From Fretibacter rubidus (GTDB taxonomy: Bacteria > Pseudomonadota > Alphaproteobacteria > Caulobacterales > Maricaulaceae): a DNA stretch of 64,000 nucleotides. Below the pieces are notes generated by a model. It made no database searches, was not told where the DNA came from, and saw nothing but the letters and a program-made list of their open reading frames with translations. Where the stretch lies: NCBI RefSeq assembly GCF_041429785.1, contig NZ_CP163423.1, positions 558,001 through 622,000 of the forward strand, given 5' to 3'. Positions 55,525-60,870 of this stretch are shown in pieces (position 1 is the stretch's first letter; each line of letters begins with the position of its first letter). A program made the translations under genes and the position numbers.

Positions 55525-57441
55525 CTATGAAATGCTTTGTCCTCTGGTCTTTGTGAGTGTCCATGAAATCGTCTGACCTTTCATCACGCCAGAAATAGAT
55601 TTGCCCAAATTCCTATCCATGGTCTCGCGCCAAGGCACGAGCGTAAATTCTTTGGACTTTTCGATAACGGCATACTTTCCGCTCGGCCTCTGAATGGCCT
55701 CGCGGTATATCCCTGAAATACGTCCGGATTCAGGCGCGGCTTTGTAAGGCTTGCCAAGTTGTTCGCTGAGCGCCTTACCCGCCGCATCAAGATCCTTTTT
55801 TTCAAGCGTATCGAGCGTGCTTTGCGTCACCCCTGATGACTTCTGAATAAGCTTTTGTGAGAGCAGGAACTTCTGGCGTTGTGCCTTTAGCGTTTCGACC
55901 TCTTGCCCAAATCCTGACGCCTCGCATTCGGCATCACTCTTCATCAACTCAGTATCAAGCCCTGTCTTGCCCATCGTCTGCGTAAGCTCCGCCAGCGGCG
56001 CGCGAGACCGAATATCTAATTTAACAGGGTTTCCGAAACTGCGTGATGTCTCATATTGCACGGCGCGTTTGAGGTAATCCCTCGGAACCTTCCACGACCC
56101 GTCTGAATTTCGCTCGGCGTGACCGGCACGACGCATAGCTTCTAACCGCCGCACATGAGCTTTAATGAATTCTTCCCTAGCGCTGGGGTCACTCATCTCG
56201 TGAAAGGATGGACTATATATGCCGCCGCGTTTAGAGGCGATGTCAGCAATAGTCCTATCTGATGCCTTAGGCGCATAGGTTTGCGGTCCTGCGGTCACGA
56301 CCATACCGCGCTCTATTTGCGCGACATTCGCTTCTCTCCCTGTCTCAACAAAGAGAGCCTCGCCGTGCATCGTATCAAGGACGATATAGCTTCGGTCATT
56401 CACATCATCGAGCACGCCTTTTTCAATGACTTTGCCGGTGATGGGGCGAGCTAACTTTTCCGCCGGATCATATATCGGCTCGCTATCAAGGCTGCGGTCA
56501 AGCTTGGCGCGGGTCATGACGCGATGATAGGCTTTGAGAATATCGCCGCGATCACCCATGCGGCGAAGCGTGCGTTCAAAATTGTCATCAAGTCGCCATT
56601 TGCCGAACCCCACCTTCTCGGCAAGGCCCAGCAAGCTTAAATATTTCACGCGCCATTTTTCAAAACGCCGTGACCAGTCCGACCCATCCAGCGGCAATTT
56701 AGACAAATCAACGATTTGGCTTTGCGCCTTCGCCAGTAAGTCCCGGTCAATCGATGTGAAACGGTCATGCCTCACGGACAACGCCAGTTTTTTCGCGACA
56801 TCAATTTGGGTTGTTGGCCCAAGCTCTAAGGTCGCGATATGTTCAGCCGCCTCTCTCATGCCGTGGGAGATATAGTCTCTCGGAATAATGAGCGTTGAGC
56901 CTCTATCCGTTACGCCGCGGATAACGACATGGCTGTGCGGGTTAGCGGTGTCATAATGATTGGCCGCGACCCAATCGAGCTTGGTGCCTAGGTCGCGCTC
57001 CATCTGGGCCATGACGTTTCGGGTGTAGCTGCGTAGGTCACCCAATTCTTTTCCGTCTTCGGGCGAAACGATCACGCGGAACTGATGCCTGTCATCCATG
57101 CCCCGCTCGTGAAACTCCTCGCCGTCAATCATCACCTCATCACGGCTATAGAGCAGACCCGTCTCGCCCTCGCGGGCGGCACTATCCCTTTGAATGTAGT
57201 CTAAGTGATGGCGCTGCGCATCTTTGCCATAAGCGCCCATCTTCACGAGATGCACTTTGACGATGACGCGACGCGAAAAATACTGCTCCGTAACAGCACC
57301 CTTTTTAACGCGCCCGCCCGATGAACGCGACGAGCGTTGCGCTGCCCGCCGCACTTGTCCCGCAAAGCTTACAAAGCGCCCTGTACCGTTGGGCGATAAT
57401 ATTCTTCCCAGCCGAACGTTGAATTGATTATCGCCGCTCAT
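55525..57441 (-). CDS. VirD2-like relaxase, DUF3363 domain
   Basis: From the ATG at 57441 the protein has 638 residues. A basic start with SSRSSGGRVKKG is followed by the relaxase domain. Tyr residues lie in HHLDYIQRD (candidate nucleophile), and the metal-binding histidines in ANHYDTANPHSHVVIRG. The DUF3363 region covers the C-terminal half, with RAGHAERNSDGSWKVPRDYL. It nicks the transfer origin and stays bound to the DNA strand. An in-frame TTG at 57447 is an alternative. The direct repeats at 57482 and 57529 may belong to its target site. Confidence 0.92.
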   Translation of the reverse strand: MSGDNQFNVRLGRILSPNGTGRFVSFAGQVRRAAQRSSRSSGGRVKKGAVTEQYFSRRVIVKVHLVKMGAYGKDAQRHHLDYIQRDSAAREGETGLLYSRDEVMIDGEEFHERGMDDRHQFRVIVSPEDGKELGDLRSYTRNVMAQMERDLGTKLDWVAANHYDTANPHSHVVIRGVTDRGSTLIIPRDYISHGMREAAEHIATLELGPTTQIDVAKKLALSVRHDRFTSIDRDLLAKAQSQIVDLSKLPLDGSDWSRRFEKWRVKYLSLLGLAEKVGFGKWRLDDNFERTLRRMGDRGDILKAYHRVMTRAKLDRSLDSEPIYDPAEKLARPITGKVIEKGVLDDVNDRSYIVLDTMHGEALFVETGREANVAQIERGMVVTAGPQTYAPKASDRTIADIASKRGGIYSPSFHEMSDPSAREEFIKAHVRRLEAMRRAGHAERNSDGSWKVPRDYLKRAVQYETSRSFGNPVKLDIRSRAPLAELTQTMGKTGLDTELMKSDAECEASGFGQEVETLKAQRQKFLLSQKLIQKSSGVTQSTLDTLEKKDLDAAGKALSEQLGKPYKAAPESGRISGIYREAIQRPSGKYAVIEKSKEFTLVPWRETMDRNLGKSISGVMKGQTISWTLTKTRGQSIS

Positions 57442-57632
57442 GGCCAAAGCTCCGAAACTCTCACAAAATCCGCAATATCAGTCCACGTCCCGGCCTTCTT
57501 CTCAGGTTCTATGGGGGAGTGCGCCGAATCCACGTCCCGGCCCAAACCCCTCGCGTCCCGCGAAAAAAGATGTGCAGACAATGGCTTAGGCCATTTTGGG
57601 CCGCGCCCTTTATCTTGCCCTCTTAAATTCAC
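57438..57632 (-). CDS. possible small protein in front of relaxase
   Basis: A 64-residue frame from a GTG ends in an ATGA overlap with the relaxase ATG at 57441. It is polar and basic, without a known family. The same bases hold the repeats proposed as origin of transfer, so the frame may be chance. Confidence 0.25.
   Translation of the reverse strand: MNLRGQDKGRGPKWPKPLSAHLFSRDARGLGRDVDSAHSPIEPEKKAGTWTDIADFVRVSELWP
57482..57542. repeat. 14-bp direct repeats, candidate oriT
   Basis: TCCACGTCCCGGCC occurs at 57482-57495 and again at 57529-57542, 47 bases apart, in the non-coding segment between traF and the relaxase gene. Repeats beside a relaxase gene are common in origins of transfer. No nick site can be named from sequence alone. 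Confidence 0.45.
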
Positions 57633-59885: not shown

Positions 59886-60212
59886 TTAGTCGTCTTGCGG
59901 GTTCCAGAGGATCGCAAATTCATCCGCCTCTTTGCCATAAGCCTGACCGAGATTGGCGTAAACTTTACGCGGGCCGAGGGTCGGATGGGCGAAGGTGAGC
60001 GAGATATATTCTTTCCCGCTGACTTCGCCTGTCTTGAACCAGCCGCCGCCAAGTTCCTGACCGCGACTATCAACAATCCGAAAGTCGGGTTGTTTGTCGG
60101 TCTCTTTATTGTCATTTGCGACAATGTTGATGCGGTTTGCGCCGCCGAGGTTCAGGGTGCCTTGAAAGTTACCCACTTCAGTTTTCGTTACATATCCAAG
60201 TGCTTGTGCCAT
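59886..60212 (-). CDS. DUF736 family protein
   Basis: The 108-residue protein starts MAQALGYVTKTEVGNFQGTL and shows FRIVDSRGQELGGGWFKTGE, YISLTFAHPTLGPRKVYANL and the final ILWNPQDD. It is only distantly like the copy at 28782 but much closer to the decayed gene at 60524. The ATG at 60212 follows TTTGGAGAC; a start at 60227 is less likely because it overlaps this binding site. A structured leader (60232-60269) comes just before. Function unknown; DUF736 genes are typical of this ICE type. Confidence 0.92.
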   Translation of the reverse strand: MAQALGYVTKTEVGNFQGTLNLGGANRINIVANDNKETDKQPDFRIVDSRGQELGGGWFKTGEVSGKEYISLTFAHPTLGPRKVYANLGQAYGKEADEFAILWNPQDD

Positions 60213-60231
60213 GGTTTCAGTCTCCAAATTA

Positions 60232-60269
60232 TGTCAGCGAAATCTCGGGAGCCAATCTCCCTGCTGACA
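60232..60269 (-). promoter_or_regulatory. two-stem leader hairpin before DUF736
   Basis: On the minus strand TGTCAGC pairs with GCTGACA, and inside it GGGAG pairs with CTCCC around ATTGG. The structure ends eight bases before the TTTGGAGAC ribosome binding site region. The same architecture is kept in the second copy (60462-60500) with compensating changes, which supports a real RNA structure. Confidence 0.6.
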
Positions 60270-60367
60270 AGAACCGCCCGCTCAAGTTCTGATTTGCAGA
60301 GGTGCGAAGCATCCCGGAACGCAGTGGAGATAGGCCAAAGGGGCGCTCTTTTGTTTCGCGATGAATG

Positions 60368-60388
60368 TGTGATTTCCTTCAAATCACA
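60368..60388. promoter_or_regulatory. palindrome TGTGATTT-N5-AAATCACA
   Basis: A perfect eight-base inverted repeat with a five-base spacer lies between the two divergent DUF736 copies, upstream of both leaders. It looks like the operator of a dimeric regulator acting on one or both genes. Confidence 0.5.
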
Positions 60389-60461
60389 GAGAAGAAAAGA
60401 GTGACGCTTAGTGAAACGGTGGCCTATTCGGCATAGCAGGTTTTGTGCAGGTTATTTTGAC

Positions 60462-60500
60462 ATCAGCAGGGAATTTGGCTTCCCCTATCATTTTGTTGAT
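60462..60500 (+). promoter_or_regulatory. two-stem leader hairpin before DUF736 pseudogene
   Basis: ATCAGC (60462-60467) pairs with GTTGAT (60495-60500), and inside it GGGAA pairs with TTCCC. Relative to the other copy one pair in each stem has changed from G-C to A-T, keeping pairing. It is followed by TTTGGAGAC, as in the intact copy. Confidence 0.55.
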
Positions 60501-60523
60501 ATGGTTTGGAGACGCGTGGGATC

Positions 60524-60870
60524 ATGGTGCAAGCATTTGGATATGCCCTGACTAAACATGACTGGGGTCATTTGAGAGGCATCTTTACGCCTTGGCGGCC
60601 TTACTTGCCCCATCAACATTGCCGCCATGATGACAATGAAGAGAGCGGCAAACAGCCCTTACACTTGAGGTCTGTTGATAGTCTCGTTCAGGAACTTGGC
60701 ACGCTTGGCGGCTGTTTTAAGACCCGCGAAGTCTGCCTTGAAAGACTCTATCTCGCCAGCCTTCGTTCATCTGGCCCTTGGCCCATTGTAAAGTTTCATT
60801 CTAATCTTGATCAGGCTTTCGGCAAAGAGGCCCTATGAATTTGCCCCTCTGGAACTTGCAAGACGACTAA
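60524..60870 (+). pseudogene. decayed DUF736 gene, inverted duplicate
   Basis: The frame starting at the ATG of MVQAFGYALTKHDWGHLRGI follows the neighbour gene closely: ESGKQPLHLRSVDSLVQELG corresponds to TDKQPDFRIVDSRGQELG, and FHSNLDQAFGKEA to VYANLGQAYGKEA. It then shifts frame and stops at 60838, while another frame restores the C-terminus PLWNLQDD with its stop at 60868-60870. Small indels and substitutions spoil the middle as well. It is head to head with the intact copy and includes the leader, so the duplication covered the regulatory region too. Confidence 0.8.

Follow-up and report, generated by a model that had tools for sequence, protein, structure and literature searches.

In the window, as we call the whole 64,000-nucleotide stretch of DNA analysed (positions 558001-622000 of a 3.45 Mb genome), a DUF736 gene is preceded by a conserved leader of about 200 nt with two kinds of hairpin structure. 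We consider it about an even chance that this is a composite leader which stands before several entry-side genes of alphaproteobacterial conjugative elements, with an upstream structure, element A, working on the transferred strand and a hairpin at the 3' end, element D, working on the mRNA.

The leader lies in a conjugation region with genes for a DUF3363 relaxase, an S26 peptidase, DUF2840, HTH_17, a PF10074+PF20109 protein, DUF736 and a ParB-like protein. We take it to correspond to the rdfS-traF-rlxS region in elements similar to ICEMlSym-R7A, which share the gene set rdfS, traF and rlxS and are all described as carrying DUF736 (msi110), often in duplicate (PMC8627217, PMC11963761). The DUF736 gene behind the leader is at 59886..60212 on the minus strand (PF05284, E 4.2e-18), and the RlxS-like relaxase gene is at 55525..57447 on the same strand (PF11843, E 5.1e-121), with element A upstream of it. 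Close relatives of the DUF736 gene come from records labelled Hellea, Hyphomonadaceae, Marinicaulis and Caulobacterales. The genome itself has five DUF3363 relaxase matches (C1: 139296, 449002, 497615, 533778, 613534) and five DUF736 genes, suggesting several conjugative elements. A Leptospira gene annotated as DUF736 is reported to be strongly temperature-dependent, with a fold change of -10 and higher expression at 29 °C (PMC8055020).

The sequence-only reading had described a two-stem hairpin in front of TTTGGAGAC at two DUF736 copies, and this was confirmed. In the minus-strand copy of element D (60232..60269) the outer stem is formed by 60263-60269 and 60232-60238 (TGTCAGC/GCTGACA) and the inner stem by 60257-60261 and 60247-60251 (GGGAG/CTCCC), around the loop ATTGG at 60252-60256; TTTGGAGAC, which includes the Shine-Dalgarno site, was read from the sequence at 60220..60228 on the same strand. 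In the second, divergent copy on the plus strand (60462..60500) the outer stem pairs 60462-60467 with 60495-60500 (ATCAGC/GTTGAT, with one G-T pair), the inner stem pairs 60469-60473 with 60480-60484 (GGGAA/TTCCC), and TTTGGAGAC was likewise read at 60505..60513. The exact TTTGGAGAC, without mismatch, is found at just two places in the window, one behind each element D. The pair changes between the copies, including the change from GGGAG/CTCCC to GGGAA/TTCCC and the one outer G-T, also read as had been claimed.

The two DUF736 genes with their leaders are the arms of a single diverged inverted duplication. The plus-strand gene (60524..60838; no Pfam hit at E 0.001) has 42% identity over residues 1-96 and is open across 112 codons. 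Its counterparts contain stops in G057 and G074, are split over two frames in L037 and end after 35 residues in L040, and in L036 and L040 the corresponding leaders have GGGAA/CTCCC, which places A-C at the innermost pair. Since the plus copy is a diverged duplicate that is broken in some relatives, covariation between the two copies is weak evidence. The claim that compensating change argues for selection on RNA structure held in part: the wider comparison described below backs selection on a structure immediately ahead of the Shine-Dalgarno site, but the two-copy argument is weak and covariation proper is moderate. When the window leader was folded alone, the outer stem was recovered and the inner pairing was different, so that the inner stem rests on comparison. 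A decaying second DUF736 copy that keeps much of element D was seen, besides window 60524-60838, in L036, L037, L038, L040, G057 (C2:1626-1913) and G074 (C11:2998-3330). Divergent DUF736 pairs also occur outside the window: a locus of another species (L063/L083; G295:C112 66337-68149) has two divergent copies, each with an element D hairpin.

To follow element D in relatives, DUF736 genes were gathered by protein similarity, one listing contributing 6 of its 40 records. We defined a strict motif, with no fewer than 5 Watson-Crick pairs and a loop ANGGN, ANNGG or ANNGGN, and it was present in 41 of the 97 distinct 80-nt leaders of DUF736, as compared with a mean of 0.61 and a maximum of 4 in 100 mononucleotide shuffles, the collection being one for which 6 of the 7 HMM seeds came from genes already known to have the hairpin. 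Some leaders outside the strict motif have variant loops or bulges, and many leaders with no hairpin resemble, by eye, spacers behind the neighbouring gene. Element D loops are mostly R-N-N-G-K. A looser motif, the loop RNNGK with a ribosome site and a start codon, occurred 78 times in 1.0 Mb (both strands), 58 of them before DUF736, and the reverse-complement loop control 10 times, 3 of them before DUF736; the loci scanned were centred on DUF736, which overstates this specificity. Three scans of viral contigs found no relative.

Near-identical hairpins of another sequence (ccgttctc-GACGG-gagaacgg) were observed before frames of 49-70 aa behind DUF736 (L064 near 2172, L065 near 2149 and, on the minus strand, L078 near 2061 and L069 near 2154). 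In addition, an rdfS-like gene (L103, minus strand, near 2141) has its own hairpin with the loop ATTGG before the ribosome site. This is the exception among the rdfS leaders, which by eye are without element D, and the idea of element D as a regulon-wide hairpin was rejected. A CsrA-like interpretation of the ANGG loop was dropped, since loops ACAAT, ATTTC and AAAAA are found as well (L100, L103, L111). DUF736 as an RNA-binding autoregulator was rejected as well, no relative having been found in the PDB by sequence; the AlphaFold model of DUF736 was poor (mean pLDDT 63.6) and the Foldseek list obtained from it (best E 0.61) was not used. No analysis that we ran gave any indication of a ligand or binding protein for the hairpin, as had been suggested.

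Covariation was assessed on alignment A6, made by MAFFT from sequence only and consisting of 24 leaders, the more alike ones, chosen by hand out of 40 displayed; pair counts from alignment A4 and model R1, both built from hand-anchored hairpins, are circular and were excluded as proof. On A6, RNAalifold predicted the inner hairpin and nothing else. The inner stem was paired in 95.0% of cells and both stems together in 86.6%, and the covariation score of the inner stem was 0.401 versus 0.196 after shuffling (0/500 as high). Under a tree-aware null the paired fraction of the inner stem was 0.95 versus 0.50 (0/300), and the G statistic gave p 0.05 for the inner and 0.45 for the outer stem. Thus, in the larger alignment that had been proposed as a check, the inner stem is recovered and paired above the null, but the covariation looked for in a structured mRNA leader is only moderate.

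The mismatches in both stems of these 24 leaders were 2 A.C versus 12.1 expected and 15 G.U versus 19.8, that is, A.C was reduced to 17% of the expectation and G.U to 76%, each below all 1000 shuffles. Judged by this pattern, element D in the window's family fits an mRNA; a broad set of 43 arm pairs, examined at pairs 4-7, had no asymmetry, with G.U 11 versus 13.4 and A.C 15 versus 17.2. A sigma-70-like match on the minus strand overlaps element D (60255-60228, 9 of 12 positions; 2 sites found, 0.4 expected). If it were a real promoter, the transcript would start behind the hairpin and element D would lie outside the mRNA; by eye, the match is not kept in the aligned relatives, and the L112 leader has no sigma-70-like match.

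Element A was found at 60342..60405 on the minus strand as a match of model R2, with helix P1 formed by 60395-60401 and 60346-60352, helix P2 by 60381-60388 and 60368-60375, and the core TTCATCGCG; on the plus strand P1 extends through a G60345.T60402 wobble. The general layout is P1 (T-rich, then A-rich), CCCC or similar, the GC-rich hairpin P2, a core like TTCCTCGCG and P1', with conservation around TCGCG and CCCC. In alignment A7 (22 leaders, cut by eye) double changes were seen in 10 of 12 pairs and 83.0% of cells were paired versus 62.3% after shuffling, and RNAalifold gave six P1 pairs with weak energy. R2 was built from the P1 pairs found on A7, and it recovers the window with E 1.1e-7 in a 363 kb search and 1.0e-6 across the whole genome, the close relative L005 being among its seeds; it also finds leaders outside its seed set. 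Its matches at E up to 0.01 cover 86 places in 51 of 148 relatives, the last few of them weak; in a separate survey of the class, 23 of 289 genomes had a match. An outer pairing, P0, between 60330..60337 on the gene side and 60420..60427 (minus strand, both arms read from the sequence) has modest support: at least 6 bp were formed in 26 of 63 leaders versus 18% of cross-leader pairs, a comparison that replaced an earlier, mostly noisy search. The similarly modestly supported element B, a stretch resembling GTCCTCCGCT.CGCT.CGG, starts at the gene-side P0 arm (60330..60337). No Rfam family matched the leader above the cut-offs, the best sub-threshold one being ArcZ (E 0.64, 17.3 bits versus 66).

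Counting G.T against A.C mismatches in a helix is a simple test for the strand on which a conserved hairpin works. We applied it to pairs 6-10 of P1 in 82 distinct arm pairs, with the register set blind to the tested pairs and with within-column shuffles; these counts replaced the first ones (G.U 2 and A.C 56 at pairs 6-10), for which the register had partly been picked by outer pairing. Watson-Crick pairs numbered 253 versus 146.5 in shuffles, G.T mismatches 5 versus 21.9 (0/1000 as low) and A.C mismatches 71 versus 64.9. For 45 representatives the values were G.T 4 versus 13.9 (p 0.001) and A.C 38 versus 36.9, and for YspA and ArdC alone G.T 0 versus 2.6 (p 0.026) and A.C 15 versus 10.1. Because a mismatch that reads A.C in gene coordinates becomes a G.T wobble when seen on the opposite strand, the P1 helix is kept on the template strand, and by this measure element A appears to be selected there. 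Folded as DNA, the template strand was the better one in 70 of 73 leaders (mean advantage 6.5 kcal/mol), compared with 119 of 219 random windows. Composition-matched shuffles accounted for 3.7 of the 6.5 kcal/mol (263/292; excess p 9e-9), so more than half of the difference is composition and the remainder is significant.

The strand results bear on the idea that the whole region is a plain 5' untranslated region with hairpins that either adjust translation or are bound by a protein, possibly the one encoded by the gene itself, the strand bias of P1 being incidental. Such an mRNA leader would explain the place of element D just before the Shine-Dalgarno site and its mRNA-like mismatches, and in 45 of 73 leaders the sense RNA of the element D region folds better than its antisense counterpart (p 0.006, composition uncontrolled). 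However, the bias of P1 is in the opposite direction, the 266-nt minus-strand sense RNA of the window leader does not fold above shuffles (z 0.31) whereas its plus strand as DNA does (z -2.18), and element A follows position relative to the relaxase. We regard this explanation as rather unlikely. The earlier suggestion of a leader RNA in front of DUF736 survives for element D with its mRNA-like mismatches, but the leader is far longer than the hairpin, is common to other gene families, and in its main upstream structure speaks for the template strand.

These other families are YspA/SLOG (PF10686), the anti-restriction family ArdC (PF08401 with PF18818), a ParB-like family (PF02195) and two small proteins without a Pfam hit. 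Element A mostly ends 105-150 nt before the start codon (74 to 171 seen). Among 137 genes with enough upstream sequence it was present before 67 of 116 DUF736, 16 of 16 YspA and 3 of 5 ArdC genes, the YspA and ArdC genes having mostly been reached through element A itself. A family name could be given to 61 of 86 geometric hits, and the family counts are upper bounds, some hits being intragenic (L119+1811, L149+1020). Element D is also present before YspA (GGCCGCG-AGAGG-CGCGGCC) and before a ParB-like gene (GGCCGCG-AGGGT-CGCGGCC). The two small proteins (L170 1716-1943, L194 1680-1922) share MSWDEY, and they are candidates for new entry-region proteins.

A DUF3363 relaxase gene was found within 40 kb of 54 of the 86 element-A places, the stronger part of the relaxase list having been entered, and in all 54 element A was upstream of it and on its strand. 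Similarly, DUF736 genes with element A were upstream and on the same strand in 40 of 40 cases, with 8 more without a relaxase nearby, versus 13 of 44 for DUF736 genes without element A (24 on the same strand but downstream, 7 on the opposite strand; 14 more without a relaxase). This control consisted of 106 places among the matches listed, set against 50 places of element A and 55 of relaxase genes; R2 may have missed an element at some of the 13. Gene order is conserved, and the orientation counts are thus non-independent. In ICEMlSym-R7A, oriT is upstream of rlxS, behind rdfS-traF-msi107 (PMC11963761), and relaxases are typically located in the lagging region (PMC11541004), from which we infer that the genes behind element A should enter first, with their template being the transferred strand. 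ArdC of R388 was needed by the recipient but dispensable in the donor (PMC7213743).

On this basis a sequence of events can be proposed. The template strand of these genes would be the one transferred in conjugation, reaching the recipient single-stranded; element A would fold on it and could allow reading of the gene, or priming of the second strand, while the element is not yet double-stranded; element D might then adjust the translation or stability of the resulting mRNA. We hold tentatively, at somewhat less than an even chance, the specific reading that this is a dual-strand leader, in which a hairpin selected on incoming ssDNA is followed by one selected on the mRNA read from the same strand, and that it marks early-entry genes (DUF736, ArdC, YspA/SLOG, ParB-like and new small proteins) in alphaproteobacterial conjugative elements.

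Element A might instead be a single-strand initiation site that primes the complementary strand in the recipient and is not a promoter for the gene behind. Template-strand folding and the entry-side position would suit such a site, as would the promoter scan: across 71 leaders, the best TTGACA/TATAAT matches in three regions lying before or within the hairpin were not above shuffles. We nevertheless find it improbable, since the similar distance before several gene families and the multiple copies in single elements (G058, G075, G004, G011, G136) point to gene expression. An antisense RNA from the opposite strand, in which element A would act to control the gene, predicts the same mismatch pattern, but it leaves the entry-side restriction unexplained, and a search of the window gave no antisense promoter ahead of element A on the plus strand, the plus-strand match at 60496-60525 being on the other side; we judge this distinctly improbable. 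Double-stranded operators of a regulator would account for a conserved core common to several genes and are highly improbable, because the arms change together yet stay complementary and the pairing is strand-asymmetric.

The proposed dual-strand leader can be compared with known systems. Element D is like the cis-regulatory leaders collected in Rfam in being a covarying hairpin before a Shine-Dalgarno site with one main gene family, but it has no match there, and for most of the leader the evidence favours the other strand. Among the open-licence papers listed for DUF736, msi110/ICEMlSym, structured RNA with conjugative DUFs, ssDNA promoters, leading regions, ArdC and single-strand initiation, we saw no description of the leader, nor any work joining Frpo with Alphaproteobacteria; the words "leader" and "hairpin" are absent from the two texts on the ICEMlSym-R7A conjugation region (PMC8627217, PMC11963761).

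The closer likeness is to Frpo/ssi of F-like plasmids, hairpins that let entry-region genes, including anti-defence genes, be read from the transferred strand and that occur in several copies per element (PMC11541004). As in Frpo, a structure is found on what would be the transferred strand, the template strand being indicated by the P1 bias and by folding and its transfer by orientation and the literature; the entry-side genes are readable from this strand (54/54; 40/40 versus 13/44), if the direction of transfer is as we propose. Unlike the leader, the Frpo hairpin carries both the -35 and the -10 hexamer, and since no such signal rose above shuffles in the 71 leaders scanned, we do not assign the leader to Frpo; the likeness is one of description. 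Element A further differs in having a P1 of 7-14 bp together with P2, and the leader in having a second, mRNA-type hairpin behind and alphaproteobacterial hosts. If the dual-strand reading is right, the leader would be a marker for early-entry genes, usable to find new anti-defence genes, and would offer an initial clue to the function of DUF736 and YspA/SLOG beside ArdC; alphaproteobacterial plasmids and ICEs would then have their own counterpart of the ssDNA promoters of the F plasmid.
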